IMG/VR virus record: IMGVR_UViG_3300037296_000035
Location: 1-44,053 of that record
Direction: 5' to 3' (one strand)
DNA length: 44,053 bases
Origin: a virus
Shown here: positions 1-43,056 of the stretch, in pieces
Position numbering within the stretch: the stretch's first letter is position 1
How the letters are laid out: each line of letters begins with the position of its first letter
The notes under the pieces: model-generated
Seen by the model: the letters and a program-made list of their open reading frames with translations, nothing else
Told to the model about the DNA's origin: nothing
Databases searched by the model: none
Position numbers and translations under genes: made by a program

Positions 1-970
1 ACTTGCCGCCGTCAAACGCTACTATTAAGTCGTCAACCAGTAAAAATAAAAATGCTATTTTTGCAGCGGCAATAATTGCGGGCGTAAAAATTAGCGCGAC
101 CGCCCCAGAGAAGCCCAGCGCGGAAACCTTGGCTAGAAAAAAAGCAGCGCCCACGGCTGCAATAAACGGGGCAACTCTTATCAGACCTTCAGCCAAGACC
201 CTAATACCGCTCACAGTGGCCTTAACGCCGTCGACAATAAAATCTTTGTTAGCGGCCAGCAGATCCATAAAGTCTTTTGTCAGTGTCGTCAGCTCAGGCG
301 CAAGGCCAACAGAGATCAAACGCTTCACCGCGTCCATGCCAAACCCTAGCGCACCGAGGGCATCGTTAAAGTTCTCTGCGCTCTTGACCTGCTCGGTTGT
401 CAGAATGCCCAACCGACGCGCTTCGGCACTTAGCGCGCCTATCTGTGCGCCTGTTTTGTTCAGCATACTGAGCAGGCTTGCGTCTATTCCTAATGCCTCG
501 GCAAATCCTTTTTGCTCACTCAGGGAAAGCCCAAGCTGACGGAACCGATTGCCTACTTCTGCGAGAACTGCGTCTGCCGATTTAACCTGGCCGCTGGCGG
601 TCCTTACACTAATGCCGAGACGCGAAAAGTCTTCGCTGCCCTTCTGTGCTGCTTCGCCGATCTTAGTGCTCAGGCCACCGATAGATGAGAACAGCGCCTC
701 TGTTGATGAACTGGATTGCTGCGCAACAAATGACAGCTCTTGCAGCTTCTCAAGCGACACTCCGGTTTCTTTGTTAAGGTTAATGAGTGGTTGTAGCGAC
801 TGGCTTGTACTTGCAGCAAAAGCATTGATTCCGACTATCACACCAGCCAGTGCAGCACCCAGTCCAGCCAGTAGCTTGACGCCTTGGCCTAGACTGCCGT
901 TGTAGTTTTTCAGCGGATCAAGCGAGCCTTCGAACCCGAACTTGGTAATTAATTCTGTGACGACGGCCAT
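1..970 (-). CDS. Tape measure protein, allele 1 (partial, runs off window start)
   Basis: An open frame of 323 codons starts at ATG 970 and runs off the window edge, so only the N-terminal part is present. It is homologous over its whole length to the complete tape measure at 37799-39745. Both begin MAVVTELIT, and both share the blocks EAAQKGSEDFSRLGISVR and IRVAPFIAAVGAAF, with many substitutions in between. The hydrophobic, Ala/Gly-rich helical composition and the position just downstream of the frameshifted chaperone fit a tape measure, which sets tail length and is ejected with the DNA. It is a diverged allele, not a copy. Confidence 0.88.
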   Translation of the reverse strand, partial: MAVVTELITKFGFEGSLDPLKNYNGSLGQGVKLLAGLGAALAGVIVGINAFAASTSQSLQPLINLNKETGVSLEKLQELSFVAQQSSSSTEALFSSIGGLSTKIGEAAQKGSEDFSRLGISVRTASGQVKSADAVLAEVGNRFRQLGLSLSEQKGFAEALGIDASLLSMLNKTGAQIGALSAEARRLGILTTEQVKSAENFNDALGALGFGMDAVKRLISVGLAPELTTLTKDFMDLLAANKDFIVDGVKATVSGIRVLAEGLIRVAPFIAAVGAAFFLAKVSALGFSGAVALIFTPAIIAAAKIAFLFLLVDDLIVAFDGGK

Positions 971-1026
971 ACAGTTCGCCTGTGCTGTTTACAATTCGCA
1001 CAAGTATAGCACAGCAGCGGGCTGTG

Positions 1027-1601
1027 TCATCGAGCCCGCTGCGCTTCGTTCATCTGGTACTGCTCAATGGCCGACGCGATTTCTTGATACTCCACCGCGT
1101 CGAGGAAGTCCCGCGTGTCCATCTGCCGGATCTCGGCAAGCGTGCCGTAACCGTGACGAACCAAGGCGTGCTCTATCATCGCCTGGTTGCTAAGGTTTGT
1201 GCGCTTGACAAGGCTGGGTTCGGACAGTGGTATCGGTACCGTTAGCCGCCAAGGTTCCCTTTCAAAAAAGGGTAGCTATATACGCCTAGCATGGTTGTAA
1301 TAAAGATTACGTAGTCTTCCGGGAACTGGTCAAAGTGGCCTTTTAGCTTGCTGAGCTGCTGATCCTCATACAGTACAGTGTCTAAGATTACTTTCTCGAC
1401 TGGCTCAAAATCCGCAGAGTCCAGAAACGAAAAGTCGCCTGCCTGGATCTCGCCTTGGCGCTTAGAGAAAAAAGCAAACACACGCCGCCGCTGGTTGTGC
1501 GTAACGGTCGTTAGCTTGTATTCCCGACCACTTGGCAAGGTTGCAGATTGGTCGTCGTGGATAGCTTTAAGCATGTCAATTGCTGTGTTTTGTTCGGTCA
1601 T
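1027..1601 (-). CDS. Tail assembly chaperone, -1 frameshift product (G-T type), allele 1
   Basis: The 0-frame ORF stops at 1242. A slip of -1 on TTTTTTG at 1263-1269 opens a further 78 codons, ending at TGA 1027-1029 and giving a protein of about 191 residues. The layout (short chaperone, frameshifted extension, tape measure) is that of lambda G/GT and P2 E/E+E'. The extension is coding: against the second allele (39802-40376) 22 codons differ, 17 of them silently in this frame. In the lambda system the extension recruits tail-tube subunits and the tape measure; the same role is inferred here. Confidence 0.87.
1242..1601 (-). CDS. Tail assembly chaperone, unshifted short form (119 aa)
   Basis: The ATG at 1601 follows an AAGGA Shine-Dalgarno and lies 2 bases after the stop of the small membrane gene. 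The product is a soluble 119-residue protein with an acidic middle, ending YPFLKGNLGG at TAA. The slippery run falls in its last ten codons, as expected for a G-type chaperone that should be made in excess of the shifted form. It carries no recognisable catalytic motif. Function is assigned from gene order and the frameshift. It is repeated without change at 40017-40376. Confidence 0.85.
   Translation of the reverse strand: MTEQNTAIDMLKAIHDDQSATLPSGREYKLTTVTHNQRRRVFAFFSKRQGEIQAGDFSFLDSADFEPVEKVILDTVLYEDQQLSKLKGHFDQFPEDYVIFITTMLGVYSYPFLKGNLGG
1263..1269 (-). promoter_or_regulatory. Programmed -1 frameshift slippery heptamer T TTT TTG
   Basis: Read on the minus strand in the chaperone frame, the codons are CCT TTT TTG AAA. 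The heptamer T TTT TTG has the X XXY YYZ form and, from memory, is the one used by the phage P2 E/E+E' tail genes. CCCTTTT overlaps it and could also slip. The 0-frame stop lies only six codons downstream. Confidence 0.85.
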
Positions 1602-1603
1602 TG

Positions 1604-1786
1604 CTATTGTCCTTGTTTAACTATTGAGTTTACCGGCTTGCACTTCTTGCCCACCTGATACGCTAATCCTAAAAAAACATACACTATAAGGCTCATTAAG
1701 AGCCAGCCATTGTCATAGTTGCCAAGGTCCATATGCAGCAAGCCTATCGTAAACAGGCCAGCCGGTGCCGCCAGTAGGCCGGACAT
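1604..1786 (-). CDS. Small two-TM membrane protein inside tail operon (60 aa)
   Basis: I chose ATG 1786 because a TTGAGGG Shine-Dalgarno sits 5 bases upstream. A longer frame from ATG 1855 exists, but that codon lies in the loop of a terminator-like hairpin. The protein has two hydrophobic segments (near residues 2-18 and 28-45) and a basic tail with GKKCKP. A membrane protein between tail tube and tail chaperone is unusual. It could be a lysis or exclusion protein carried as cargo, but nothing in the sequence decides this. It is repeated at 40379-40561. Confidence 0.65.
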   Translation of the reverse strand: MSGLLAAPAGLFTIGLLHMDLGNYDNGWLLMSLIVYVFLGLAYQVGKKCKPVNSIVKQGQ

Positions 1787-1845
1787 GAAAGCCCTCAAGG
1801 TTACAGCTTGTCCGTTGTGGCAGCAAATCAGAAAGGCTACAGAAA

Positions 1846-1866
1846 AGCCCCACATTTCGCAGGGCT
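1846..1866 (-). terminator. Terminator-like hairpin after tail tube gene
   Basis: On the minus strand, AGCCC and GGGCT arms close a loop of about 11 bases and are followed by TTTTCT. It sits just after the tail tube gene. It could attenuate transcription so that sheath and tube are made in excess of chaperone and tape measure. The same hairpin occurs in the second copy at 40621-40641. Confidence 0.5.
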
Positions 1867-1882
1867 CTCAAATCCGACTCTG

Positions 1883-2314
1883 TTACAGGTTCCGCGATCC
1901 ATTCCTAAACCGAATCACGTACTCCTGCAATGCGTTGCCGTCAGTGCTTGATTTGGTGTTGGTCGGCTGGGTGGTGACGCTGCCGTTTTCCAGAATCCAA
2001 GACTCGACACCCGCAACACCATCCCGCGTAAAGCTTTCTTTTGCGCTGCCGTTAATGACAGCCGGTGGCGACTGACGCGCCAGGTTGGCCATGAATACGT
2101 CAGATTCGCTGAACCGCTGAACCCGCAGCATGACGTCGTGTACGCCTCGATCGCTGCGCTCGTTGATGTTTACGCCACCGTTGATGCTGTTGACGTGTGA
2201 AGTGGCTGGGTTGACCGGTGTGATGACGACGTAATCGCCCTCAATCAAATCCACAATGGCTGTACCGTTGAGCACCACCGTTGAACTGTCTACTGCTAAT
2301 GCAATGCCTGCCAT
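1883..2314 (-). CDS. Tail tube protein (DUF3277-like)
   Basis: A 143-residue protein encoded 12 bases after the sheath gene. It is beta-rich, with an N-terminal segment containing LIEGDYVVITP, and later SDVFMANLARQS and SWILENGSV. Size, composition and sheath-tube order match the DUF3277-like tube proteins of contractile-tailed phages. The tube is the inner channel through which DNA passes. The copy at 40658-41089 is identical. Confidence 0.82.
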   Translation of the reverse strand: MAGIALAVDSSTVVLNGTAIVDLIEGDYVVITPVNPATSHVNSINGGVNINERSDRGVHDVMLRVQRFSESDVFMANLARQSPPAVINGSAKESFTRDGVAGVESWILENGSVTTQPTNTKSSTDGNALQEYVIRFRNGSRNL

Positions 2315-2326
2315 GATGCGTGCTCC

Positions 2327-3832
2327 TTAACGGTTTACGTTGACGATGATGTCTACGGAATGAATAGCGCCGGCCAACTTAACCGCGCCCTGTAGTACAG
2401 GAGACTGTCGGGCCTCGCGTGAGTTCTGGGCCTGCGCTGCAAGTGATCCTGCCAGCCAGTAAAAGCCGTTGTTGCTAATGCCGCGACGGAAGGTTTCCAG
2501 ATCGCCAAAGGTGTCAGGGCTTGACCAGGTGCCTGGTGCAAACACGCCTGCGCGTACAAATTGCAACGTGGTTTTTTCTGCTTGGTCAATCAACTGGTTC
2601 ACGCCGCGGGTTGTCTGCGGGATCTTGGTGCTGGTTTGTTTGAGCAGGTTGAACATGTCAATCTGCAAGAAGTCCACGTATGCAATCAGATTATAACGCT
2701 CATCGGTAAAGTTGTTAGCGCCACTGGTCAAAATTGCAGGCGTTAATTTAATGGTCGTGTACAGGTCTAGGCCAACAGTCTGCGCCTGGTTAACCTGGGT
2801 CTGTGTGTATTCCTCTGCTGCCACTGACAGCTCTTTCAGATGCATTGTCAGCGCCGAGTTTTCAGCAGCAAAGTTGACTGTGTGTGCCCGTGCCATGTAC
2901 GACGCCGCCAGCTTGCGGTTGCCGGCTTTGCTAAACAGCATTCGATAGTTGGTCAGGCTTGAGAGTTTGATGTCCCAGACCACGTTTGTCGGGTCAACAG
3001 TCAAGTTGGCCGGTGCGTCGAACACATCATACTGAAGCACGTCGTTAGCCTGGCCAAACTCTGCCAGCGCCTTGGACTCTAAATCAGTCGGGTTGTCGAT
3101 GAACATCGCACCACGGAATTTGACCTGCGCAAACAGTTCTGTGATTGCCGCCAGCTTAGTTTCTACAGCTAAGGTTGCCGCGTCTACGCCTTGAGTCAGG
3201 AAGCCGCCAGAGCCGGTGGTAAGCGCCAAGGTCTGACCGATGAATGTCCCGGTGCCTGGGTCAGTCGCAAAGGTGATGGTGCTAGTTGCGCCGGTTGTGT
3301 CGCTTGTAATCACAAGACGCTGATCACTGATTGAAGCGGTTGCGCCTGTCAGCTCTGCGTCGATAACGTCCACAATCGCCGCCAGCGTGGTTGCGCTCTG
3401 GAAGTCCAGACCGGTCAGCGCTTCGGGCACGCCGTCCACGTCCACGGTTAGGGTTCCGTCTGCTACCTGTTGCAGGCCGCCGACTACGGATGCCTCAGAT
3501 AGCTGTGCGCCGTTTAGGCTTGCCGATGTTGCCATCAGGGTTTCTTCTGCACCGCGCCAATAGCCGATGACCAGGAAGCCACCCGCGTTGGTGGCGTTGG
3601 GTGACGTGCCAAAGAATGAAAGCGCGAAATCGTACGCCTTGCTCGCTGTCCCGAAGTCAGTCGCAACGCTGCCCGAATCGGAATAGATCCGGTAGCGACT
3701 CGCGGATGACAACGGGCCTTGCTGCTCGCTGGTCAGCATTGTGACCACGTTCGGGTTGTCTGCCATTGCCAATGCGCCGCTTTGTAGCAGGGTTACAGAA
3801 ATTACGTTTTTAATGCTTACACTCATGGTCAA
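2327..3832 (-). CDS. Contractile tail sheath protein (DUF3383-like)
   Basis: A 501-residue protein starting MTMSVSIKNVISVTL. It contains the family-like block GGFLVIGYWRG, a central insertion rich in Thr and Gly (about residues 100-215), and a C-terminal part with NNGFYWLAGSLAAQAQ. The size, and the tube gene directly downstream, fit the DUF3383-type sheath of small myoviruses. This protein is the best single evidence for a contractile tail. The ATG is preceded by AGAGGA. The copy at 41102-42607 is identical. Confidence 0.88.
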   Translation of the reverse strand: MTMSVSIKNVISVTLLQSGALAMADNPNVVTMLTSEQQGPLSSASRYRIYSDSGSVATDFGTASKAYDFALSFFGTSPNATNAGGFLVIGYWRGAEETLMATSASLNGAQLSEASVVGGLQQVADGTLTVDVDGVPEALTGLDFQSATTLAAIVDVIDAELTGATASISDQRLVITSDTTGATSTITFATDPGTGTFIGQTLALTTGSGGFLTQGVDAATLAVETKLAAITELFAQVKFRGAMFIDNPTDLESKALAEFGQANDVLQYDVFDAPANLTVDPTNVVWDIKLSSLTNYRMLFSKAGNRKLAASYMARAHTVNFAAENSALTMHLKELSVAAEEYTQTQVNQAQTVGLDLYTTIKLTPAILTSGANNFTDERYNLIAYVDFLQIDMFNLLKQTSTKIPQTTRGVNQLIDQAEKTTLQFVRAGVFAPGTWSSPDTFGDLETFRRGISNNGFYWLAGSLAAQAQNSREARQSPVLQGAVKLAGAIHSVDIIVNVNR

Positions 3833-3869
3833 ATCCTCTGTTTAAAGTGCTGTTACGCTGATTCCATGA

Positions 3870-3879
3870 TAACAGTAAA
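3870..3879 (-). promoter_or_regulatory. Candidate extended -10 promoter / TTTACTGTTA motif before sheath gene
   Basis: In the gap upstream of the sheath gene the minus strand reads TTTACTGTTATCATGG. TGTTATCAT resembles an extended -10 element (TGn plus TATCAT). No clear -35 is present. The TTTACTGTTA core recurs in other intergenic gaps of this genome, and again at 42645-42654. Confidence 0.4.
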
Positions 3880-3883
3880 AGGG

Positions 3884-4279
3884 TCACGGCGTATCTTGTG
3901 GGATTGGTGTCAACCCTAGCGCCGCAATGTGATCCTGCGCTGACTCTTTACGGTCGCCTAAGATAACCGCGATAACGTCCGGGCTTGCAATGCCGCCGTT
4001 GATCTGCAATAGCGCTTGAGCTCGTGTGGCGGCTGCCAAGTCCATGTCCGGTGCGTGGTTAGGGGCTTGTAATGGCTGGCCTGCTATCTGTGCGAATATT
4101 GGCTTGGCTACCGTTGAACACACGGCGTACAAGTTGCCTCCATCGTCCTGATAAGTTGCTGCGCCAAATGTCTGATCGTCTGGGGGTGACTCACCCAACG
4201 CTAACGCTAGTTGATTAGCGTCTGCAATATGGGCGACAGGCGAAGCAATGGTAGCGCGTTGTTTATATTCTGTGGTCAT
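3884..4279 (-). CDS. Hypothetical protein, possibly chaperone for the repeat protein (131 aa)
   Basis: A 131-residue soluble protein encoded 2 bases after the BspA-like repeat gene. It is Ala-rich, with a helical C-terminal part (about residues 80-125). I recognise no domain. A small gene placed directly after a fibre-like protein often encodes its assembly chaperone; that is inference from position only. The copy at 42659-43054 is identical. Confidence 0.6.
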   Translation of the reverse strand: MTTEYKQRATIASPVAHIADANQLALALGESPPDDQTFGAATYQDDGGNLYAVCSTVAKPIFAQIAGQPLQAPNHAPDMDLAAATRAQALLQINGGIASPDVIAVILGDRKESAQDHIAALGLTPIPQDTP

Positions 4280-4281
4280 TT

Positions 4282-5946
4282 TTAATATCCTCCTTCGACG
4301 CTTACTGTCCAGCCCCGTGAACGTAGCGTATCAATAGCCGGTTGCCCTGTATCTACAGAGGGGGCCGAGCCTCCTGACTGATCAAATATTCCTGCTGCGA
4401 TTCCTGATGTGACCAAGGAGACTAAGATTCCGTCTATGCTGGTTTGGTCTAGTGCCGTGTTAAGGAAAGCGGATGTGAAGTCACCGCCTTTAATATTGTC
4501 AAAAGCGTTGGCTGGGAAGCTTGTTAGTGATGAGCATTCATACCACGCGGCATAAAAACGAGTCCCGCTGGAAGTATCGATTAATGGAAAACTAGTTAAT
4601 GAATTACAATTACGCCATGCTAAACGAAAAATAGTACCACTAGATGTATCAATTAATGGAAAACTAGTTAATGAAGTACAATTACGCCATGCTGCATCAA
4701 AACTAGTACCACTAGATGTATCAATTAATGGAAAACTAGTTAATGAAGTACAATTAAGCCATGCTAAACTAAAACGAGTCCCGCTGGAAGTATCGATTAA
4801 TGGGAAGCTTGTTAGTGATGAGCAGTCACGCCACGCGGCATAAAAATCAGTCCCGCTGGAAGTATCGATTAATGGGAAGCTTGTTAGTGATGAGCAGTCA
4901 CGCCACGCGGCATAAAAATCAGTCCCGCTGGAAGTATCAATTAATGGAAAACTAGTTAATGAAGTACAATTACGCCATGCTGAACTAAAACTAGTACCAC
5001 TAGATGTATCAATTAATGGAAAACTAGTTAATGAAGTACAATTATACCATGCTAAAATAAAACGAGTCCCGCTGGAAGTATCGATTAATGGGAAGCTTGT
5101 TAGTGATGAGCAGTCACGCCACGCGGCATAAAAATCAGTCCCGCTGGAAGTATCAATTAATGGAAAACTAGTTAATGAAGTACAATTACGCCATGCTGAA
5201 CTAAAACTAGTACCACTAGATGTATCAATTAATGGAAAACTAGTTAATGAAGTACAATTATACCATGCTAAAATAAAATTAGTACCACTAGATGTATCAA
5301 TTAATGGAAATTCAGTAATTTCTGAACGATCTCTCCAATAATCATTAAAACTAGTAACCTCACTGTAATCAACTCCAGCACCATTCTCAATGAAGTATTC
5401 TTCAGTATTACTCTTTTCAATGTTAGTCATCGCACTGTTAAGAAATACAACTCCATTAATAGCATTACCAGGAAAGTATACACCTCCAATCTCATATTCT
5501 CCGGCAGGAATATCAACTCCATAGCTAACTGTACCTTCGTCAGTGGCTAAAACCATCGTGCCATTCCAGCCACCTGTAGGCACTGTTATAATCAGCGCGT
5601 CGTCTACTTTGTCCAGTGACAACCTATCGGGTGAAGTGTTGTATGTTGGTCTAGCTGCGCTTGTGGATTGTGCCGCGCTGTTCCCATTCCCAGACAGGTC
5701 AATCATCCGCCCAACAGGATCACCGTCCGCCGTAACAGGCACAGTGCCTGCCGCGTCCTGAAACAGCGTAGATATATCGACAGGGGAATAATACGCGCCT
5801 TGCTCACCTAGAAAGAATAAATCCTCTGGCTTAAAAATATAAGGCTTATGCTGCCCCTTACCCCCAAGCTTTAAGCCAAAATTTAGCAAGTCATTTCTCC
5901 CTTTTGTAAAGTTGACATTTATAAGGTTGTCAATACTTGCGGACAT
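4282..5946 (-). CDS. BspA-like repeat protein, candidate receptor-binding or decoration fibre
   Basis: A 554-residue protein. Residues 1-60 look like a virion-anchoring segment. Residues 50-90 hold a module with DISTLFQDAAGTVPV and DLSGNGN that recurs in an early protein at 27422-27721. Residues 120-205 are an AT-rich-coded beta domain. About residue 209 to 473 holds 11 tandem 24-residue repeats of the type SLTSFPLIDTSSGT-xF-xxAW-xxC, resembling BspA/DUF285 leucine-rich repeats. Variation is confined to a few positions around the F, W and C. A cap with SFPANAFDNIKGG ends the protein. The start ATG follows GAGGG. It lies between neck and sheath genes, which could suit a collar or head fibre. 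Confidence 0.75.
   Translation of the reverse strand: MSASIDNLINVNFTKGRNDLLNFGLKLGGKGQHKPYIFKPEDLFFLGEQGAYYSPVDISTLFQDAAGTVPVTADGDPVGRMIDLSGNGNSAAQSTSAARPTYNTSPDRLSLDKVDDALIITVPTGGWNGTMVLATDEGTVSYGVDIPAGEYEIGGVYFPGNAINGVVFLNSAMTNIEKSNTEEYFIENGAGVDYSEVTSFNDYWRDRSEITEFPLIDTSSGTNFILAWYNCTSLTSFPLIDTSSGTSFSSAWRNCTSLTSFPLIDTSSGTDFYAAWRDCSSLTSFPLIDTSSGTRFILAWYNCTSLTSFPLIDTSSGTSFSSAWRNCTSLTSFPLIDTSSGTDFYAAWRDCSSLTSFPLIDTSSGTDFYAAWRDCSSLTSFPLIDTSSGTRFSLAWLNCTSLTSFPLIDTSSGTSFDAAWRNCTSLTSFPLIDTSSGTIFRLAWRNCNSLTSFPLIDTSSGTRFYAAWYECSSLTSFPANAFDNIKGGDFTSAFLNTALDQTSIDGILVSLVTSGIAAGIFDQSGGSAPSVDTGQPAIDTLRSRGWTVSVEGGY
4528..5322 (-). repeat. Eleven 72-bp tandem repeats in two synonymous nucleotide families
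   Basis: The 24-residue repeats are encoded by 72-bp units of two clearly different DNA types. One is AT-rich (on the plus strand, with aaaactagttaatgaagtac); the other is more GC-rich (with gggaagcttgttagtgatga). Both encode nearly the same SLTSFPLIDTSSGT backbone. Switches between types fall inside the conserved DTSS segment, as expected from recombination between units. Confidence 0.9.
4849..5278. repeat. 214-bp exact direct repeat pair (4849-5062 and 5065-5278)
   Basis: Bases 4849-5062 and 5065-5278 match at an offset of 216 bp, that is three 72-bp units. This is a recent segmental duplication inside the repeat gene. The window itself ends at 44053, which corresponds to 5278, exactly where this exact repeat stops. 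Confidence 0.88.
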
Positions 5947-5957
5947 TAGTGCGCCCT

Positions 5958-6233
5958 CTAGGCAAAATGGAACGCGCCGCTTGTAACTTCTACAGTCACG
6001 GCCTCAGTCATTGAAAAATCATCACCCGCCACAAACGCAACAACCGATGTACTGGCGTCACCCCACGTCAACGTAAGCGAGCCATCCTCAACGCAATGCA
6101 CAAGCTGTGGACGCAAGCCGGTATCTGGGTCGGTTACAATGCCGGTCGAGATATTGACAAGACCTTTTCAAAGCGGGAACGCCTGGACAGAATCGCCGGT
6201 CGCGCTGGGTGCCAATCTGATTTGTGATGCCAC
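5958..6233 (-). pseudogene. Small virion-operon gene interrupted by in-frame TGA (91 codons)
   Basis: A GTG at 6233 follows GAGG with good spacing, 14 bases after the preceding gene ends. The frame reads MASQIRLAPSATGDSVQAFPL, then TGA at 6168-6170, then continues in the same frame for 69 codons (KGLVNISTGIV... ending GAFHFA) to TAG 5958. The downstream part has coding character, and the next gene starts 11 bases after the TAG. It could be a nonsense mutation, a sequence error (TCA to TGA) or stop-codon readthrough. The product resembles no family I can name. Confidence 0.6.
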
Positions 6234-6247
6234 GGTAAATCCTCGTG

Positions 6248-6751
6248 TTAGGGTTCAAATTCTATTCCGCGCTCGCTGCGTATTTGCAGCTCTGCGGTAT
6301 CAATTCTCAGTATATCAACATCGACGCTTATGGCGAAACGCACGTTCAGTGTCATGTCCTGCCGTTCGCCATAGGTCATGCCGGCCAGTATTTTAACGTC
6401 GGTTATCGTCGATACCTGATATACCCCTAAGCCTAACGACTCTTGCAGCTCAAGGGCTTTCTGCGACTGTATGAGCAGGCCGAATTGTGTGGCCGTGGTC
6501 CATGCGTTAGGCCCGTAAAACGATAGGGTCAAAGGTGCCTGCCACTGCTGCTGATAAGTCATTTCTTCAGCGGTGTCGTTGTATCTTTCGCCGCTTGCCA
6601 GTCTTTGTGCTGCGCCAAGTGCATCAATGCCGATATGCGCAACGGTAAAATCTTCTATCTCGTAATTTTGGCGACCGATTCGGATTAGCTGCTCGTCATA
6701 ATCCAGCAAGTCGCGCACGAATAACGCTGTCAGTCGCAATGCTTCGTTCAT
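6248..6751 (-). CDS. Neck / tail terminator-like protein (167 aa)
   Basis: A 167-residue protein whose start overlaps the previous stop by four bases. It lies in the slot after the HK97-gp10-like gene and before the sheath, where the tail terminator is encoded. Segments such as QQQWQAPLTLSFYGPNAW and RQDMTLNVRFAISV suggest the alpha/beta fold of the LIC_12616-type neck or terminator proteins. The family match is from memory, and the position supports it. Confidence 0.65.
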   Translation of the reverse strand: MNEALRLTALFVRDLLDYDEQLIRIGRQNYEIEDFTVAHIGIDALGAAQRLASGERYNDTAEEMTYQQQWQAPLTLSFYGPNAWTTATQFGLLIQSQKALELQESLGLGVYQVSTITDVKILAGMTYGERQDMTLNVRFAISVDVDILRIDTAELQIRSERGIEFEP

Positions 6752-22566: not shown

Positions 22567-23436
22567 ATGAACATAACCGTTATTGAATACAAAGAAGGCA
22601 TGGAGATCGTGCCACCAATGTTCGTAAGCGGTATGCCTAACGACGCATATCACAGCCATCTCAAAGGCATTAGCAGTTCTGGCCTAAAAACAGTCCTGCG
22701 CAGCCCGGCACACTACAAGTTCCAGGCGGCACGCACCCCAAGCCGCGCTATGGAAATCGGCACTGCAATACACACGGCACTGCTGGAGCCTGATCGCTTT
22801 GCTAATGATTACGTTCTGCTGCGCGAGGTTAAGGACCGCCGCGCCAGTGAGTACAAGCAGGCTGTAAAGACGCACGGCACCGAAGTTGTGCTGACAGCAG
22901 GAGAGGCTGACAACGTCATCGGTATGCAAGAGGCTGTGCTTGCTAATCCGTTGATGTGCAGCCGACTGACCGGCGAAGGCTGGCGAGAGCTGTCTTTGTT
23001 TGTGCGCGACCCTGAAACCGCGGTATTGATCCGCGTGCGCTACGACCTGCTGTTGACTGACGGCACCATAGTCGACGTTAAGAAGACGCAAGACGCCAGG
23101 CCAGATCCGTTCAGCCGTGCGATCGACAACTACGGTTATGATCTATCCGCTGCCCTGTACGTTGACGCCTTCGAGTGGGCAACAGGCGAGGAAGCACAGT
23201 TTGAATTCGCCGCGGTAGAAGAAGCCATGCCGCACGGCCACAAGCTGTACCGGCCCTGTGATACAACGCTTGGTGAGGGTCGACGCAAATACCGCGAAGC
23301 TCTTGACACGTTCGCTGCTTGTGAATCGTCAGGTGTATGGCCTTCGCTGCCGTGTGATAAGCCAGAGATCATAAGCCTGCCAGCGTACCGGCTGTCGCAG
23401 ATTGAAAACGCACTAGAAGATGGGGGCATTTACTAA
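22567..23436 (+). CDS. RecE-like PD-(D/E)XK exonuclease (289 aa)
   Basis: 289 residues. SSSGLKTVLRSPAHYKF near residues 36-52, then AMEIGTAIHTALLEPDRF, is typical of the exonuclease VIII C-terminal family. Catalytic positions are the Asp in RVRYD (160) and D-V-K in IVDVKKTQD (170-172), followed by YGYDLSAALYVDAF with the Q/Y motif. It is first in the plus-strand operon, before an unknown partner and SSB, as in phage recombination cassettes. Confidence 0.87.
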   Translation: MNITVIEYKEGMEIVPPMFVSGMPNDAYHSHLKGISSSGLKTVLRSPAHYKFQAARTPSRAMEIGTAIHTALLEPDRFANDYVLLREVKDRRASEYKQAVKTHGTEVVLTAGEADNVIGMQEAVLANPLMCSRLTGEGWRELSLFVRDPETAVLIRVRYDLLLTDGTIVDVKKTQDARPDPFSRAIDNYGYDLSAALYVDAFEWATGEEAQFEFAAVEEAMPHGHKLYRPCDTTLGEGRRKYREALDTFAACESSGVWPSLPCDKPEIISLPAYRLSQIENALEDGGIY

Positions 23437-24047
23437 TGAGCAATGACGTATCATTCGCAATCGAAGCAAAGTCAGACCAACTAAACACGCTGGACATCGT
23501 AGGCGTCGAGCCTATATTGAAGATTACCGGCGTAACCGTAAAACCGCCAGGGACCGAGCAGCCTATCTGGGTACACTTTGAGGGCGACCACAACAAGCCG
23601 TGGAAGCCAAGCAAAGGAATGTTACGGATGCTGGTTGAGGCTTGGGGGCGTGATAGCTCTGCCTGGACGGGCCAGAGCGTTCAGGTTCACGTCGACCCAG
23701 AAGTCAAATGGGCAGGCAAGGCAGTCGGCGGCATACGTATACGCGCATTGACCGGCATCCTAGCCCGCGGCATGACGTTTCTAGTCGCCGAAAGCCGGGC
23801 CACGCGCAAACCTGTACACGTTCCTTTTCTTGAGCTAAAGACAGAAGAATACCCGGCTGATCGTTTTGAAAAAGCACTTCCAGTTATGGCAAAAAAGATG
23901 CAAGAAGGCACAATGACATTGCAGCAGGTTATCGGCCAGTGTCAGAAAACCGGAAAGCTTACCGCGGCTCAGCTTGTTAGCCTTGAGCAGGCGGCACCGG
24001 TTGTAGTTGACAACGCAGAAGACCACGATACAAGCGAGGAAATGTAA
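23436..24047 (+). CDS. Recombination-operon protein of unknown function (203 aa)
   Basis: 203 residues, starting one base into the exonuclease stop and ending directly before SSB. It has KPWKPSKGMLRMLVEAWG, then a beta-rich part with VQVHVDPEVKWAGKAVGGIRI, a helical C-terminal third and an acidic tail (DNAEDHDTSEEM). It does not look like RecT or Erf by any motif I know. Position suggests a single-strand DNA-binding or annealing partner of the exonuclease. This is inference. Confidence 0.6.
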   Translation: MSNDVSFAIEAKSDQLNTLDIVGVEPILKITGVTVKPPGTEQPIWVHFEGDHNKPWKPSKGMLRMLVEAWGRDSSAWTGQSVQVHVDPEVKWAGKAVGGIRIRALTGILARGMTFLVAESRATRKPVHVPFLELKTEEYPADRFEKALPVMAKKMQEGTMTLQQVIGQCQKTGKLTAAQLVSLEQAAPVVVDNAEDHDTSEEM

Positions 24048-24452
24048 ATGAATCTGTTAACACTAACCGGCAATTTAGGTCAAGACTGCGAAGTAAAGCA
24101 AGTTGGCACATCAACAGTATGCAGCTTTAGCGTTGCAATGAAGGCGGGTTTCGGCGACAAGGCCCAGACGGTATGGCTAGACTGTGCAATCTGGGGTAAG
24201 AAAGCAGAAGGTGGCCTACCTGCCTATCTCAAGAAAGGCCAACCGGTAGCTGTTTCTGGTGAGCTGTCTACGTTTGACGCAACTAACGGCAAGACTTACC
24301 TAAAGTTGCGCTGCAATGACGTTGACTTGATCGGTGGTAAGTCTGAGGGCGTGCGGCAAGCGCCAGCACCGCAGATGCGGCAACCTGCGCCAGCACCAGG
24401 CTGGCCCGATCCTGATCCTGTTGATGATTTTCCAGATGACATCCCGTTTTAG
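24048..24452 (+). CDS. ssb: Single-stranded DNA-binding protein
   Basis: 134 residues beginning MNLLTLTGNLGQDCEVKQVG, the classic OB-fold start (TGNLG). It continues WLDCAIWGKKAEGGLPAYLKKG and VSGELSTFDATNGKTYLKL. A Pro-rich linker leads to the acidic tip DDFPDDIPF, which in SSBs binds partner proteins. It protects and organises ssDNA during replication and recombination. Confidence 0.93.
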   Translation: MNLLTLTGNLGQDCEVKQVGTSTVCSFSVAMKAGFGDKAQTVWLDCAIWGKKAEGGLPAYLKKGQPVAVSGELSTFDATNGKTYLKLRCNDVDLIGGKSEGVRQAPAPQMRQPAPAPGWPDPDPVDDFPDDIPF

Positions 24453-30358: not shown

Positions 30359-31951
30359 TTATCTCAACTCTAGCCATTTTATCGGGTAATAAACTCCCCA
30401 GTTGCTAAGCTTGTAGGTATTGGAATTTGGAACTATAAATGAGACTATTTCCATATTGTTATCGTTTGTGGGGACAGCAATTCCGTTAATAGTCAGAACT
30501 GAATCTGCACTTTTAGGGTCAAAAATAATAAAAACCTGTATTGGTTTTCCAGTGCTATTCGTATAGGTTGTATTCTTCACCCTTGAAGATGTAACATTTT
30601 GCCAAGTCTGCCCAACGCCAATTTCTCTTAAAGTCTGATCGCCGGTATTCGTTCCGCTCAGGTTGGTGGCGGATATGTTCCCCGCAAACGTAGCTCCTGA
30701 TAGATTTGCCTTGGCATTAAGAAGGCTGTCAACTTCCGCCTCTGTGTAGGTTGTGGCCTTGTCCGCCTTGGCATTAAGAAGGCCATCAACTTCCGTCTCG
30801 GTGTAGGTTGTAGCCTGATTCGCCTTAGCGTCAAGAAGGCTGTCAACTTCCGCCTCTGTGTAGGTTGTGGCCTTGTCCGCCTTGGCATTAAGAAGGCTGT
30901 CAACTTCTGTTTCAGTGTAGGTTGTAGCCTGATTCGCCTTAGCGTCAAGAAGGCTGTCAACTTCCGCCTCTGTGTAGGTTGTGGCCTTGTCCGCCTTGGC
31001 ATTAAGAAGGCTGTCAACTTCTGTTTCAGTGTAGGTTGTAGCCTTATCGGCATACTGAGTGTCCGTCCACTGCCTTTGACCAATAACAGAAACAGCGTAA
31101 CCACCAGCGGCGGTGTCTGTACTCGTGTTTAAAACAACTCTGGTGCCGTTACCGTCTCCAAGGTTTCCATATACCAGCCCAACTCCTGCGGGCGAGCTTG
31201 TCCAGGTTAATACAGTGTCATATGTGAACCCTGCACCAGCAGCAACACCAGCCTCCAGTTCTTGGATAGTAAGCAGCCTTGCCCCGCGCTCTGCCGCCTC
31301 TTCTACTACCTGTGCAAAAGTAAGCGCTGTTCCAGTGCCTGTACGAAATCCCTGAATGTGTGGATATGCGGTAATGGGTTCTCTAAGGTTTTCTGAAATG
31401 TCTGAACTAGATGCCAGTGTTGTATTGGGGTAGGCAAGACTTCCTGTCAGCTCGTCAACTTCTGTTTCAGTGTAGGTATTGGCTTGGTCAGCTTTGTCGT
31501 CCAACAGGTTGTCAACTTCCGTCTCGGTGTAAGTTGTGGCTTGGTTTGCTTTAGCGTCCACCTGAGCCCGAGTAGGTGCAAGCTCCCAATTTGTGCCGTT
31601 GTCGTTATCTGGGTCTACAGTTGCATCACCGCCATTTTTTAGCCGGTAAATTCCTGCCAATGTAGTGACAACCGAGCCTTGATAACATTCCTGCGACGTG
31701 TTCCACTCCGGTATACCCTGCTGGTGCAGGTACGCAATTAGCTGGCCAAGGGTAAACCCCAGGCCGTTAAAGTCTTGCTTGGTTGGATTAAACGTAGGCC
31801 CGGTAATGCCCCAGCCTCTAAAGAAGTCCGCGACAACATTATCGTCAAGGGTGTCCGACTGAGATGTATCGCCGAAAACAGTTCTTTCTGTGCCTGTTGC
31901 CGAGCTTCCAAACGCTCTTAGGTTGCCGTCATATCTGTCTATCTTTGCCAT
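30359..31951 (-). CDS. Tail fibre protein (530 aa)
   Basis: 530 residues. The N-terminal region (to about 130) begins MAKIDRYDGNLRAFG and has the GITGPTFNPTKQDFNGLGFT segment typical of virion-attached fibre starts. Seven or more TYTETEVD-L-AKA-type 22-residue repeats follow in two blocks, flanking a globular insertion with FRTGTGTALTFAQVV. The C terminus has ANLSGATFAGNISATNLSGTNTGDQT and a beta-sandwich-like tip ending PIKWLELR. It likely binds the host surface. It follows the DUF2612-like gene. Confidence 0.85.
   Translation of the reverse strand: MAKIDRYDGNLRAFGSSATGTERTVFGDTSQSDTLDDNVVADFFRGWGITGPTFNPTKQDFNGLGFTLGQLIAYLHQQGIPEWNTSQECYQGSVVTTLAGIYRLKNGGDATVDPDNDNGTNWELAPTRAQVDAKANQATTYTETEVDNLLDDKADQANTYTETEVDELTGSLAYPNTTLASSSDISENLREPITAYPHIQGFRTGTGTALTFAQVVEEAAERGARLLTIQELEAGVAAGAGFTYDTVLTWTSSPAGVGLVYGNLGDGNGTRVVLNTSTDTAAGGYAVSVIGQRQWTDTQYADKATTYTETEVDSLLNAKADKATTYTEAEVDSLLDAKANQATTYTETEVDSLLNAKADKATTYTEAEVDSLLDAKANQATTYTETEVDGLLNAKADKATTYTEAEVDSLLNAKANLSGATFAGNISATNLSGTNTGDQTLREIGVGQTWQNVTSSRVKNTTYTNSTGKPIQVFIIFDPKSADSVLTINGIAVPTNDNNMEIVSFIVPNSNTYKLSNWGVYYPIKWLELR
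30702..31050 (-). repeat. 66-bp tandem repeats in tail fibre gene
   Basis: Alternating units encode TTYTEAEVDSLLDAKANQA and TTYTETEVDSLLNAKADKA, 22 residues each, in about 132-bp pairs. Near-identical DNA suggests recent expansion. Further single units occur around 31440-31560. Confidence 0.85.
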
Positions 31952-37799: not shown

Positions 37800-39745
37800 T
37801 AACTACCCCCTCTGCCTACTGTCTGATTGCGGGCGTCTTCAAGCTGTCGCTGCAAGCCGTCTGAAGCCGCTTTACCGGCCCGTTCTGGATCTGATGTGCG
37901 AATGTCCATGATAACGTTTTGCTCTACTGTGCTGGACTGCGCGAGGTTGTTGGCTCGCCCGCCGCCTGGCTGAAAGACTTGTGACGACTGGGCCATTGGC
38001 ATTGTGCTTTCTCCGCCACCGAAAAGCCCACTTATAGCGTCCGTAGCCCCACCGAAAAGCCCACTGATGGCCCCGCCTGCCTCGCTGGCAAGATTGCCGA
38101 CAGACTCCGTTGCGTTCCCAACACCTTCGGCTGCTCCGCCGATTAAGCTGACAGCCCAGTCGGGCAGTATGCTTAAAGCCATTTGTTTAATGGAGTCAAA
38201 AGCCGCACCAAAAACATTCTCAAAAGCTATGGCAATGGTGTCTACGAATATCGAAAAACTATCTGTCAAATCAGCAATGCCTTCGGAGAAATTACCGGTC
38301 ATCAGCTTACCGATGCCAGAAAATATACCTCCGAATGTCGCTAAAAAGCCAGTGGCAAGGCCGAGCACGAGGCTAAACACTTCTTTAAATCCGTCTATGA
38401 TGTCAACAAGCACCGGCTGTATGTCAAAACCAAGAAACTCTTGAAAGAAATCAGCTATGACGGACTGGCCACCGCTCAGCGCCTTTGATAGATCATCCAC
38501 CGCAAATAATATTCCAGCAATACCGGCAACTATGAGGGTTACGGGTGAGGTTATAAGCGCCAGAGCACCTGCGAATATAGCCGGGCCAGCCGCAGCGACA
38601 GCAAAGGCGGCAGCAACACCAGCAATCAATCCACTAAACGGTTCCAAAAGATCAAATATTATTTTGGCCCCGCCGGATATTCCGCTGACAAGCTTCCCAA
38701 ATACATCAGCAATACCCTGCAATACCGGTCTAATGTCAAAGCCAAGAAATTCTAAAAAGAAGTTTCTGATAACTGAATTACCACCCTGAAAAGCAACTAT
38801 CAAATCATCCAATACAACTATAACGGCTGCAATCCCAGCAGCAATAAGAATGGCGGGCGAGAACACAAGCGCCAGCGAGCCGGCAAACCCGAGCGTATAA
38901 ACTTTTGCCAGCAAGAAAGCTGCGCCGACTGCCGCTATAAAGGGCGCAACCCTTATGAGGGCGTCAACCAGGTCGCGCAACACACCCACAGTCGCCGTAA
39001 TGCCGTTGATAATAAAGTCTTTGTTGGACGCCAGCAGGCTGGTAAAGTCATTGGCCATTTCTGTCAGCTCGGGCGCAAGGCCAACAGCAATAAACCGCTT
39101 GACCGACTCCATGCCAAACCCTAGCTTGCTAAGCGATTCGTTGTAATCCTCTGCGCTCTTTACTTGTTTGGTCGTAAGCACACCCAGCAGTTGAGACTCT
39201 TCGCGCAGTGCAGCCATTTCCGAGCCGGTTTTATTCATCATACTCAACAGGCTGGGGTCTATGCCAAGTGCTTCAGCAAATCCCTGCTGCTCGCTCATGG
39301 ACAGCCCTAACTGCTTAAAGCGGCTGCTCACTTCTGCCAAAACGGAATCTGTAGACTTTACTTGCCCGTTAGCATCCCTAACGCTAATGCCAAGCCGTGA
39401 AAAATCTTCACTGCCCTTTTGTGCGGCCTCGCCAACCTTAGCGCCTAGTCCGCTAAGTGACGAAAAAAGAGCTTCGCTTGATGAACTGGATTGCTCTGCA
39501 ATGAAAGACAATTCCTGGATCTTCTCGACGGACACACCGGTTTGCGCGTTAAGGTCTATAAGCGGCTGAAGTGATTGACTGATCCCAGTCACAAACTTGC
39601 CGACACCAAGCACGGCAACACCGAGTCCCGCAGCTAGGCCGGCCAGCAAACCAATGCCCTTGCCTAAAGATGAATTGTAACTTTGTAGCGGATCAAGTGA
39701 GCCTTCAAAGCCAAACCTGGTGATTAGTTCCGTGACGACGGCCAT
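37799..39745 (-). CDS. Tape measure protein, allele 2 (complete, 648 aa)
   Basis: 648 residues with long hydrophobic helical stretches. Two tandem internal segments of about 120 residues are visible: DDLIVAFQGGN followed by FFLEFLGFDIRPVL, and DDLSKALSGGQ followed by FFQEFLGFDIQPVL. The C-terminal part is rich in Gly, Ala and Ser, with AGGAISGLFGGATDAISGLF. Its N-terminal half is homologous to the partial allele at 1-970. At about 1.5 angstroms per residue the predicted tail is near 100 nm. Confidence 0.9.
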   Translation of the reverse strand: MAVVTELITRFGFEGSLDPLQSYNSSLGKGIGLLAGLAAGLGVAVLGVGKFVTGISQSLQPLIDLNAQTGVSVEKIQELSFIAEQSSSSSEALFSSLSGLGAKVGEAAQKGSEDFSRLGISVRDANGQVKSTDSVLAEVSSRFKQLGLSMSEQQGFAEALGIDPSLLSMMNKTGSEMAALREESQLLGVLTTKQVKSAEDYNESLSKLGFGMESVKRFIAVGLAPELTEMANDFTSLLASNKDFIINGITATVGVLRDLVDALIRVAPFIAAVGAAFLLAKVYTLGFAGSLALVFSPAILIAAGIAAVIVVLDDLIVAFQGGNSVIRNFFLEFLGFDIRPVLQGIADVFGKLVSGISGGAKIIFDLLEPFSGLIAGVAAAFAVAAAGPAIFAGALALITSPVTLIVAGIAGILFAVDDLSKALSGGQSVIADFFQEFLGFDIQPVLVDIIDGFKEVFSLVLGLATGFLATFGGIFSGIGKLMTGNFSEGIADLTDSFSIFVDTIAIAFENVFGAAFDSIKQMALSILPDWAVSLIGGAAEGVGNATESVGNLASEAGGAISGLFGGATDAISGLFGGGESTMPMAQSSQVFQPGGGRANNLAQSSTVEQNVIMDIRTSDPERAGKAASDGLQRQLEDARNQTVGRGGS

Positions 39746-39801
39746 AGATTGAGCCTATGCTGATTGCATTTCGCACAAGTATAGCACAGCAGCGGGCCGT
39801 G

Positions 39802-40376
39802 TCACCGTGCCCGCTGTGCTTCGTTCATGTGGTACTGCTCGATGGCTGATGCGATTTCTTGATACTCTATCGCGTCGAGGAAGTCCCGCGTGTCCATCTG
39901 CCTTATCTCAACAAGCGTACCGTAACCATGGCGAACCAGAGCGTGTTCTATCATTGCCTGGTTGCTAAGGTTTGTACGCTTGACGATGCTAGGTTCGGAC
40001 AGTGGCGCCGGTACCGTTAGCCGCCAAGGTTCCCTTTCAAAAAAGGGTAGCTATATACGCCTAGCATGGTTGTAATAAAGATTACGTAGTCTTCCGGGAA
40101 CTGGTCAAAGTGGCCTTTTAGCTTGCTGAGCTGCTGATCCTCATACAGTACAGTGTCTAAGATTACTTTCTCGACTGGCTCAAAATCCGCAGAGTCCAGA
40201 AACGAAAAGTCGCCTGCCTGGATCTCGCCTTGGCGCTTAGAGAAAAAAGCAAACACACGCCGCCGCTGGTTGTGCGTAACGGTCGTTAGCTTGTATTCCC
40301 GACCACTTGGCAAGGTTGCAGATTGGTCGTCGTGGATAGCTTTAAGCATGTCAATTGCTGTGTTTTGTTCGGTCAT
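39802..40376 (-). CDS. Tail assembly chaperone, -1 frameshift product, allele 2
   Basis: Same arrangement as at 1027-1601. The 0-frame stop is at 40017, and the slip on TTTTTTG at 40038-40044 opens 78 more codons to TGA 39802-39804. Relative to allele 1 the extension differs at 22 codons, of which only five change the residue (Ile to Ala, Leu to Ile, Ala to Val, Val to Ile, Gln to His). Confidence 0.87.
40017..40376 (-). CDS. Tail assembly chaperone, short form (second copy)
   Basis: Identical to the protein at 1242-1601, with the same AAGGA site and the same gap to the upstream membrane gene. It lies in the duplicated end of the window and is probably the same genomic locus. Confidence 0.85.
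   Translation of the reverse strand: MTEQNTAIDMLKAIHDDQSATLPSGREYKLTTVTHNQRRRVFAFFSKRQGEIQAGDFSFLDSADFEPVEKVILDTVLYEDQQLSKLKGHFDQFPEDYVIFITTMLGVYSYPFLKGNLGG
40038..40044 (-). promoter_or_regulatory. Slippery heptamer T TTT TTG (second copy)
   Basis: Same codons (CCT TTT TTG AAA) as at 1263-1269, leading to the allele 2 extension. Confidence 0.85.
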
Positions 40377-40378
40377 TG

Positions 40379-40561
40379 CTATTGTCCTTGTTTAACTATT
40401 GAGTTTACCGGCTTGCACTTCTTGCCCACCTGATACGCTAATCCTAAAAAAACATACACTATAAGGCTCATTAAGAGCCAGCCATTGTCATAGTTGCCAA
40501 GGTCCATATGCAGCAAGCCTATCGTAAACAGGCCAGCCGGTGCCGCCAGTAGGCCGGACAT
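40379..40561 (-). CDS. Small two-TM membrane protein (second copy)
   Basis: Identical to 1604-1786, including the TTGAGGG site. Part of the repeated end of the window. Confidence 0.65.
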   Translation of the reverse strand: MSGLLAAPAGLFTIGLLHMDLGNYDNGWLLMSLIVYVFLGLAYQVGKKCKPVNSIVKQGQ

Positions 40562-40657
40562 GAAAGCCCTCAAGGTTACAGCTTGTCCGTTGTGGCAGCA
40601 AATCAGAAAGGCTACAGAAAAGCCCCACATTTCGCAGGGCTCTCAAATCCGACTCTG

Positions 40658-41089
40658 TTACAGGTTCCGCGATCCATTCCTAAACCGAATCACGTACTCC
40701 TGCAATGCGTTGCCGTCAGTGCTTGATTTGGTGTTGGTCGGCTGGGTGGTGACGCTGCCGTTTTCCAGAATCCAAGACTCGACACCCGCAACACCATCCC
40801 GCGTAAAGCTTTCTTTTGCGCTGCCGTTAATGACAGCCGGTGGCGACTGACGCGCCAGGTTGGCCATGAATACGTCAGATTCGCTGAACCGCTGAACCCG
40901 CAGCATGACGTCGTGTACGCCTCGATCGCTGCGCTCGTTGATGTTTACGCCACCGTTGATGCTGTTGACGTGTGAAGTGGCTGGGTTGACCGGTGTGATG
41001 ACGACGTAATCGCCCTCAATCAAATCCACAATGGCTGTACCGTTGAGCACCACCGTTGAACTGTCTACTGCTAATGCAATGCCTGCCAT
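40658..41089 (-). CDS. Tail tube protein (second copy)
   Basis: 143-residue DUF3277-like tube protein, identical to 1883-2314. Confidence 0.82.
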   Translation of the reverse strand: MAGIALAVDSSTVVLNGTAIVDLIEGDYVVITPVNPATSHVNSINGGVNINERSDRGVHDVMLRVQRFSESDVFMANLARQSPPAVINGSAKESFTRDGVAGVESWILENGSVTTQPTNTKSSTDGNALQEYVIRFRNGSRNL

Positions 41090-41101
41090 GATGCGTGCTC
41101 C

Positions 41102-42607
41102 TTAACGGTTTACGTTGACGATGATGTCTACGGAATGAATAGCGCCGGCCAACTTAACCGCGCCCTGTAGTACAGGAGACTGTCGGGCCTCGCGTGAGTT
41201 CTGGGCCTGCGCTGCAAGTGATCCTGCCAGCCAGTAAAAGCCGTTGTTGCTAATGCCGCGACGGAAGGTTTCCAGATCGCCAAAGGTGTCAGGGCTTGAC
41301 CAGGTGCCTGGTGCAAACACGCCTGCGCGTACAAATTGCAACGTGGTTTTTTCTGCTTGGTCAATCAACTGGTTCACGCCGCGGGTTGTCTGCGGGATCT
41401 TGGTGCTGGTTTGTTTGAGCAGGTTGAACATGTCAATCTGCAAGAAGTCCACGTATGCAATCAGATTATAACGCTCATCGGTAAAGTTGTTAGCGCCACT
41501 GGTCAAAATTGCAGGCGTTAATTTAATGGTCGTGTACAGGTCTAGGCCAACAGTCTGCGCCTGGTTAACCTGGGTCTGTGTGTATTCCTCTGCTGCCACT
41601 GACAGCTCTTTCAGATGCATTGTCAGCGCCGAGTTTTCAGCAGCAAAGTTGACTGTGTGTGCCCGTGCCATGTACGACGCCGCCAGCTTGCGGTTGCCGG
41701 CTTTGCTAAACAGCATTCGATAGTTGGTCAGGCTTGAGAGTTTGATGTCCCAGACCACGTTTGTCGGGTCAACAGTCAAGTTGGCCGGTGCGTCGAACAC
41801 ATCATACTGAAGCACGTCGTTAGCCTGGCCAAACTCTGCCAGCGCCTTGGACTCTAAATCAGTCGGGTTGTCGATGAACATCGCACCACGGAATTTGACC
41901 TGCGCAAACAGTTCTGTGATTGCCGCCAGCTTAGTTTCTACAGCTAAGGTTGCCGCGTCTACGCCTTGAGTCAGGAAGCCGCCAGAGCCGGTGGTAAGCG
42001 CCAAGGTCTGACCGATGAATGTCCCGGTGCCTGGGTCAGTCGCAAAGGTGATGGTGCTAGTTGCGCCGGTTGTGTCGCTTGTAATCACAAGACGCTGATC
42101 ACTGATTGAAGCGGTTGCGCCTGTCAGCTCTGCGTCGATAACGTCCACAATCGCCGCCAGCGTGGTTGCGCTCTGGAAGTCCAGACCGGTCAGCGCTTCG
42201 GGCACGCCGTCCACGTCCACGGTTAGGGTTCCGTCTGCTACCTGTTGCAGGCCGCCGACTACGGATGCCTCAGATAGCTGTGCGCCGTTTAGGCTTGCCG
42301 ATGTTGCCATCAGGGTTTCTTCTGCACCGCGCCAATAGCCGATGACCAGGAAGCCACCCGCGTTGGTGGCGTTGGGTGACGTGCCAAAGAATGAAAGCGC
42401 GAAATCGTACGCCTTGCTCGCTGTCCCGAAGTCAGTCGCAACGCTGCCCGAATCGGAATAGATCCGGTAGCGACTCGCGGATGACAACGGGCCTTGCTGC
42501 TCGCTGGTCAGCATTGTGACCACGTTCGGGTTGTCTGCCATTGCCAATGCGCCGCTTTGTAGCAGGGTTACAGAAATTACGTTTTTAATGCTTACACTCA
42601 TGGTCAA
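41102..42607 (-). CDS. Tail sheath protein (second copy)
   Basis: 501-residue DUF3383-like sheath, identical to 2327-3832. Confidence 0.88.
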   Translation of the reverse strand: MTMSVSIKNVISVTLLQSGALAMADNPNVVTMLTSEQQGPLSSASRYRIYSDSGSVATDFGTASKAYDFALSFFGTSPNATNAGGFLVIGYWRGAEETLMATSASLNGAQLSEASVVGGLQQVADGTLTVDVDGVPEALTGLDFQSATTLAAIVDVIDAELTGATASISDQRLVITSDTTGATSTITFATDPGTGTFIGQTLALTTGSGGFLTQGVDAATLAVETKLAAITELFAQVKFRGAMFIDNPTDLESKALAEFGQANDVLQYDVFDAPANLTVDPTNVVWDIKLSSLTNYRMLFSKAGNRKLAASYMARAHTVNFAAENSALTMHLKELSVAAEEYTQTQVNQAQTVGLDLYTTIKLTPAILTSGANNFTDERYNLIAYVDFLQIDMFNLLKQTSTKIPQTTRGVNQLIDQAEKTTLQFVRAGVFAPGTWSSPDTFGDLETFRRGISNNGFYWLAGSLAAQAQNSREARQSPVLQGAVKLAGAIHSVDIIVNVNR

Positions 42608-42658
42608 ATCCTCTGTTTAAAGTGCTGTTACGCTGATTCCATGATAACAGTAAAAGGG

Positions 42659-43054
42659 TCACGGCGTATCTTGTGGGATTGGTGTCAACCCTAGCGCCGC
42701 AATGTGATCCTGCGCTGACTCTTTACGGTCGCCTAAGATAACCGCGATAACGTCCGGGCTTGCAATGCCGCCGTTGATCTGCAATAGCGCTTGAGCTCGT
42801 GTGGCGGCTGCCAAGTCCATGTCCGGTGCGTGGTTAGGGGCTTGTAATGGCTGGCCTGCTATCTGTGCGAATATTGGCTTGGCTACCGTTGAACACACGG
42901 CGTACAAGTTGCCTCCATCGTCCTGATAAGTTGCTGCGCCAAATGTCTGATCGTCTGGGGGTGACTCACCCAACGCTAACGCTAGTTGATTAGCGTCTGC
43001 AATATGGGCGACAGGCGAAGCAATGGTAGCGCGTTGTTTATATTCTGTGGTCAT
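42659..43054 (-). CDS. Hypothetical protein after repeat protein (second copy)
   Basis: 131 residues, identical to 3884-4279. Confidence 0.6.
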   Translation of the reverse strand: MTTEYKQRATIASPVAHIADANQLALALGESPPDDQTFGAATYQDDGGNLYAVCSTVAKPIFAQIAGQPLQAPNHAPDMDLAAATRAQALLQINGGIASPDVIAVILGDRKESAQDHIAALGLTPIPQDTP

Positions 43055-43056
43055 TT

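Follow-up and report, generated by a model that had tools for sequence, protein, structure and literature searches.

A gene within the 44,053-nucleotide stretch of DNA analysed here (the window; IMG/VR record IMGVR_UViG_3300037296_000035, a metagenomic contig) probably encodes an LRR-array adhesin whose repeats derive from two phage lineages and have been diversified by recombination and selection, without the involvement of a reverse transcriptase. The gene product is laid out as an N-terminal anchor and linker domain, an 11-unit array (residues 217–480 of the ORF) and a conserved C-terminal cap, and it matched PHROG 34853 and PHROG 9915, both of unknown function. The unit consensus is DTSSGTxFxxAWxxCxSLTSFPLI, and TRF scores of 855–1308 indicate that the array is not a product of chance. 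A first-pass annotation, made from the sequence alone, had placed eleven 24-residue units at 4528–5322; these are real, and correspond to the array listed below, read in a shifted register.

4282–5946, (−) strand: array protein gene, ORF of 554 amino acids
4507–5298, (−) strand: repeat array, 11 × 72-bp units of 24 residues each, 264 residues in total
4285–4506, (−) strand: C-terminal cap, conserved in relatives

The contig end falls inside a second copy of the array. The overlapping ends span window positions 1–5278 and 38776–44053; of these, 1234–5278 are exactly identical to 40009–44053, and the adjoining 1.1 kb on the side of the tape-measure gene is 78% identical; this exact end overlap, followed by 22% divergence, indicates that the assembly ran round a genome of ~38.8 kb into a different strain.

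The family was sampled by scanning IMG/VR with the C-terminal cap, which returned about 130 relatives, and a second scan added further ones. Relatives among phage records included Synechococcus phages S-CBWM1 and S-SKS1 and Nonlabens phages P12024S and P12024L, and prophages with the array gene were found in Psychrobacter sp. FME13 and in a second genome of the same family. Across 62 distinct arrays, 334 of the 355 units were distinct. Variation in these units was concentrated at positions 7, 9, 10, 13, 14 and 16 (entropy 2.1–3.6 bits), which were occupied mainly by N, S, Y, R, T, D, G, L, Q and A; the remaining positions were mostly below 1.1 bits, with positions 4 (S/A, 1.56 bits) and 24 (1.39 bits) intermediate. 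The first-pass expectation of about five variable positions around F, W and C was right as to their placement around these fixed residues, but the positions are six in number. Two departures from a single array of 24-residue units were observed: the FME13 prophage (L102 5686–7014) has 23-residue units in clean tandem two-unit block repeats, and in L029, L044 and L049–L051 one ORF carries two full arrays with caps in tandem, possible donor units. A programmed frameshift was considered for L012 and L017 and rejected, as the one-base indels between units lie near contig ends, mostly in homopolymers, and are probably sequencing errors. The open-access literature yielded no description of such phage BspA arrays, of hypervariable LRRs or of VLR-like phage proteins.

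Within the window, the array is written in two DNA dialects (A and B), which can be told apart at 11 backbone sites in each unit, every one of these differences being synonymous. Each unit is A throughout, B throughout or a hybrid with one junction, as follows (unit 1 lies farthest from the cap).

5155–5298, (−) strand: units 1–2, dialect A
5083–5154, (−) strand: unit 3, dialect B
5011–5082, (−) strand: unit 4, hybrid, B then A
4939–5010, (−) strand: unit 5, dialect A, identical to unit 2
4795–4938, (−) strand: units 6–7, dialect B, identical to unit 3
4723–4794, (−) strand: unit 8, hybrid, B then A
4579–4722, (−) strand: units 9–10, dialect A, unit 10 ending in B-type ATC
4507–4578, (−) strand: unit 11, dialect B, adjoining the cap

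Units 1, 2, 5 and 9 are pure A, units 3, 6, 7 and 11 are pure B, and unit 10 is dialect A save for its last codon. In the two hybrids, units 4 and 8, the DTSSGT part is in dialect B and the remainder in dialect A, with an identical junction in both. Two dialects in one array, as originally proposed, are therefore borne out, and they are arranged in blocks. The accompanying proposal, that recombination took place inside DTSS, held only in part: junctions do exist, but they occur at two sites in the unit only, A to B between FPLI and DTSS and B to A between GT and xF, that is, at both edges of DTSSGT rather than inside it. Units 2–3 are the same as units 5–6, and unit 7 the same as unit 6, which indicates block duplication (a 216-bp block plus one copy). 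The shared junction of units 4 and 8 would fit a copied four-unit block, the variable codons of which changed later.

Both DNA types could be located among other IMG/VR phages, A-type units in contigs L009, L010, L012 and L014 and B-type units in L015, L016, L017 and L023. For comparison of the flanks, the window was aligned to relatives in 100-base steps, whereby the following A-like segment was delimited.

5299–5600, (−) strand: mostly AT-rich sequence 5′ of the array, 98–100% identical to A-array phage L010

The match to L010 covered 5301–5600 of the stepwise alignment. On the other side, at ~4201–4400, the window was 92–99% identical to the B-array phages L015, L016, L017 and L023, compared with 66–83% to A-array phages; for L015, L016 and L023 the identity of the 3′ flank was 93–98%. 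The 5′ flank thus belongs to the A lineage and the 3′ flank to the B lineage, so that the gene is recombinant, with the array as the exchange zone. Judged from these alignments, two parental arrays recombined to give the present one, which was enlarged afterwards through block duplication, and the earlier suggestion of modules from two sources is vindicated in that both lineages were found, with matching flanks. Contig L014 is a second mosaic, its A units being accompanied by a last unit that is not of type A and by a different cap. IMG/VR yielded no AT-rich genome that could have donated dialect A. Bacteria were also considered as its source, and set aside; a first genome scan with the cap as query gave no relative, and a second gave only the Psychrobacter prophage, with its 23-residue units in a different dialect.

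The alternation of A and B might instead be an assembly chimera of two co-occurring strains, given that sequence from different strains is already combined at the contig ends, that the contig ends inside the array and that repeat arrays are where assemblies fail. We consider this quite improbable, as the unit order is the same at both contig ends over 766 bases, the flanks outside the repeats likewise derive from different lineages, L014 shows a comparable pairing of A units with a foreign last unit and cap, and block-duplicated arrays are present in an isolate prophage (Psychrobacter).

Variable and silent sites were also compared. For L009 (8 units), 0 of 14 synonymous backbone codons varied versus 11 of 12 first and second positions of variable codons (p = 1.6e-6), and among 22 non-hybrid A units from five contigs only 1 of 13 synonymous backbone codons was variable, although in the cap and the sequence beyond it these phages mostly share 65–86% identity with the window. 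Many other arrays do differ at silent sites (median 0.32 of codons), so that slow accumulation and selection may suffice there.

Phages with 91–99% identical flanks were found to differ in array number and content. The flanks of L015 and L016 are 98.0% identical, with 14 of 18 variable residues differing, and 16 of 18 differ both for L028/L060 (flank 92.5%) and for L037/L060 (92.4%). Nonlabens phages P12024S (L020) and P12024L (L021), with compared flanks 98–99% identical, differ in unit number at the repeat tip, in the residues at the hypervariable positions there and also by synonymous changes, the last of which point to exchange rather than targeted mutation. Between L049 and L050 (99.0% identical), 14 differences fall within a 108-bp array stretch and are followed by 2.9 kb without any; unit 2 of L049 looks as if it carries the copied second half of unit 1, this being the probable direction. 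This was the one clear conversion-like tract. Separately, clustered multi-base differences among L049, L050 and L051 were observed at L049 3778–3796, 3971–4038 and 4248–4320, ~1.2–1.8 kb past the array gene on its downstream side, and may mark another variable spot. Mutual information was clearly above shuffles for adjacent codons only (9–10, 13–14 and 16–17), modest for 10–13 and a few others, and near random for the remaining position pairs.

Some of these observations could be accommodated by an alternative history, in which A and B fused once, very strong positive selection on ordinary point mutations produced the unit diversity, and recombination did no more than copy units. In many cases the variable codons differ by one or two base changes with T retained at the third position, positions 9–10 and 13–14 are linked, and phages reach population sizes at which adaptive change can outpace synonymous drift. 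Such a history is nevertheless unlikely, as recombination is needed for the near-free combination of the other variable blocks, for the half-unit tract of L049/L050, and for the recurrent identical hybrid junctions and the presence of A-type arrays in different flanks.

Turnover was also followed among very close relatives. Five contigs, 99.7–99.9% identical and from five samples, had the identical array, and the same array was also shared within the pairs L054/L056, L035/L036 and L090/L092, so that a strain keeps its order and the changes come at the strain level. A repeat order fixed in all isolates had been named beforehand as an outcome that would speak against shuffling; what was found is an order that varies across relatives, yet is fixed among near-identical ones. 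This bears directly on a dedicated, programmed cassette, whereby arrays would be actively reshuffled within a population in the manner of antigenic variation from silent cassettes. Such a system would account for the extreme focus of variation on six codons and for near-complete array turnover against 91–98% identical flanks, and the double arrays in one ORF (L029, L044 and L049) could serve as donors. It is rendered most doubtful by the single array shared by the five contigs and by L054/L056 and L035/L036, and no silent array elsewhere in the window, nor any specific recombinase beside the array, was seen. The self-contained diversification cassette of the first-pass annotation is accordingly weakened, since no dedicated machinery was seen and near-identical contigs keep their array. 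Recombination and selection, the reading we prefer, could draw on a gene set elsewhere in the window that is a plausible source of short-homology array recombination.

22567–23436, (+) strand: exonuclease VIII-like
23436–24047, (+) strand: phrog_11517, function unknown
24048–24452, (+) strand: SSB

The claim that diversification proceeds without a reverse transcriptase stood up, in that an RVT_1 search of 60 records (12 + 48, many of them fragments) gave no match while the positive controls were detected. An A-scaffold pattern search of the window matched the array and its terminal duplicate only, with no template repeat. Moreover, in 22 A-type units, which differ among themselves at each of the six variable codons, none of the 110 silent third-position adenines near these codons was changed. 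With no RT, no template and silent adenines fixed, a DGR was rejected, and is very unlikely on this sequence evidence. A DGR acting from elsewhere, with a host RT in trans, would fit the observation that four of the six variable codons in dialect A are mostly NNT, as an AAT template could give. Against it stand the same RVT_1 result, the lack of a template copy in the window and the unchanged adenines, as well as the variable codons of dialect B, which retain GC-type third positions, and we regard it as extremely improbable. The array protein is similar to Mtd of Bordetella phage BPP-1, a DGR system, in having hypervariable codons within a fixed phage surface-protein scaffold; it differs in having no RT, template or adenine specificity, and in its predicted LRR rather than C-type lectin fold.

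For the fold, an AF2 model (441 residues) was obtained with pLDDT 82 and pTM 0.76, in which the array forms a solenoid with short DSSP strands at unit positions 24–1, 7–9 and 12–13. The 50 listed PDB matches were LRR proteins, with low TM-scores (0.12–0.29), and viral structural matches included S-SKS1, P12024S and phage BspA proteins; the predicted fold is of the LRR solenoid type. Residues of the buried type recur at F8, W12, C15 and L18; a single continuous face should therefore be formed by the variable residues lying between these, and from the repeat pattern and composition we infer that the variable residues are exposed on it.

LRRs of the BspA/DUF285 type (PF13306 and PF03382) occur in bacteria, Trichomonas and some phages. 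The array resembles them in its xFxxAWxxCxSLTSFP layout, its LRR-type fold neighbours and its phage BspA structural matches, but differs in its 24-residue unit, its near-invariant backbone (at synonymous sites too in some arrays) and its six hypervariable positions. No match of the window protein to PF03382 or PF13306 was found above the curated cut-offs; the S-CBWM1 relative passes PF03382 (26.7 versus 25 bits) and comes near PF13306. Variable lymphocyte receptors (VLRs) of lampreys and hagfish are modular LRR solenoids that combine fixed-scaffold units with variable residues. The phage array has in common with them a modular LRR solenoid, and it gave a weak sequence match to VLR9 (E 0.05). 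As regards module combination, the phage arrays are mosaics in which variable blocks combine almost freely; no active assembly and no germline cassette assembly was seen. In the model, the PLI-D strand at 24–1, matched to the canonical concave strand, is constant and the variable positions (7–16) lie elsewhere, which would point against the VLR pattern.

The array gene lies in a myovirus structural block, with the tail terminator gene (6248–6751) and the DUF3383 tail sheath gene (2327–3832) on either side. There is a separate tail fibre gene (30359–31951); this tail-type gene has its own 57-bp tandem repeats, about six copies, at 30703–31045. In Pseudomonas phage KLEP17-4, the nearest isolate on the basis of terminase, the corresponding position lacks an array gene, and the gene thus has the appearance of an accessory insertion. 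Its immediate neighbours are as follows.

3884–4279, (−) strand: partner gene, 131 amino acids, 58% identical to Carin1 gp38
5958–6233, (−) strand: small upstream gene of ~91 codons, occupying the place of a head-spike base gene

These genes recall Cobetia phage Carin1, with which the window shares a three-gene neighbourhood of a small upstream protein, a protein with a common N-terminal module (48% identity to gp39 over 86 amino acids) and a 131-residue partner. In Carin1, gp38 and gp39 adjoin gp40, the solved spike base 8cjz_h, but gp39 has no repeat array and is annotated as hypothetical only. In the Psychrobacter prophage, too, the array gene is followed by a partner gene, 42% identical. 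The small upstream gene has an in-frame TGA at 6168–6170 in the window and is open in L009, L016 and L031; the small upstream genes gave no sequence match to solved spike bases, Carin1 gp40 included. Because of this synteny with one podophage (Carin1), a head-spike fibre is favoured over a tail fibre as the leading assignment for the array protein, at about even odds. The RcGTA head-spike fibre (Rcc01079/Rcc01080 system) binds capsule (PMC10218006). We infer a role in adhesion, and the array protein is most likely a putative accessory virion adhesin.

The proposed course of events is that the array gene would provide the ~38.8-kb myovirus with this adhesin, the binding part being a BspA/DUF285-like LRR solenoid with six outward-facing hypervariable positions per unit on an otherwise fixed scaffold. 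Recombination would have fused a 5′ half from the A lineage with a 3′ half from the B lineage, crossovers at the short identical stretches flanking DTSSGT would have interleaved A and B units, and unequal crossover would next have duplicated three- and four-unit blocks. Across the family, diversity would arise from point mutations in the six variable codons, from patchy conversion and block duplication within arrays, and from the exchange of array pieces between phages; homogenisation would keep the backbones alike, while strong diversifying selection would keep the variable positions different. That this selection is host-driven, and that the phage's own recombination genes are used, is presumed.

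A bolder extension is that these arrays form an RT-free, VLR-like phage receptor system, a portable LRR array under continual recombination between units and phages, its specificity evolved combinatorially rather than by single mutations; we offer this tentatively, as a possibility on the doubtful side. By analogy, the array protein resembles a phage version of the modular immune receptors, one that ordinary recombination and selection would have built. Where phage receptor proteins are known to be diversified in a targeted way, the mechanism has mostly been a DGR, whereas about 130 viral loci appear here to reach comparable site-focused diversity on a repeat scaffold, with no RT found. They may thus serve as a natural comparison for the reach of recombination and selection alone, with a readable array history, and as a natural library of solenoid binders. 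Cultured Psychrobacter-family prophages and the Nonlabens P12024S and P12024L isolates make binding and turnover directly testable.
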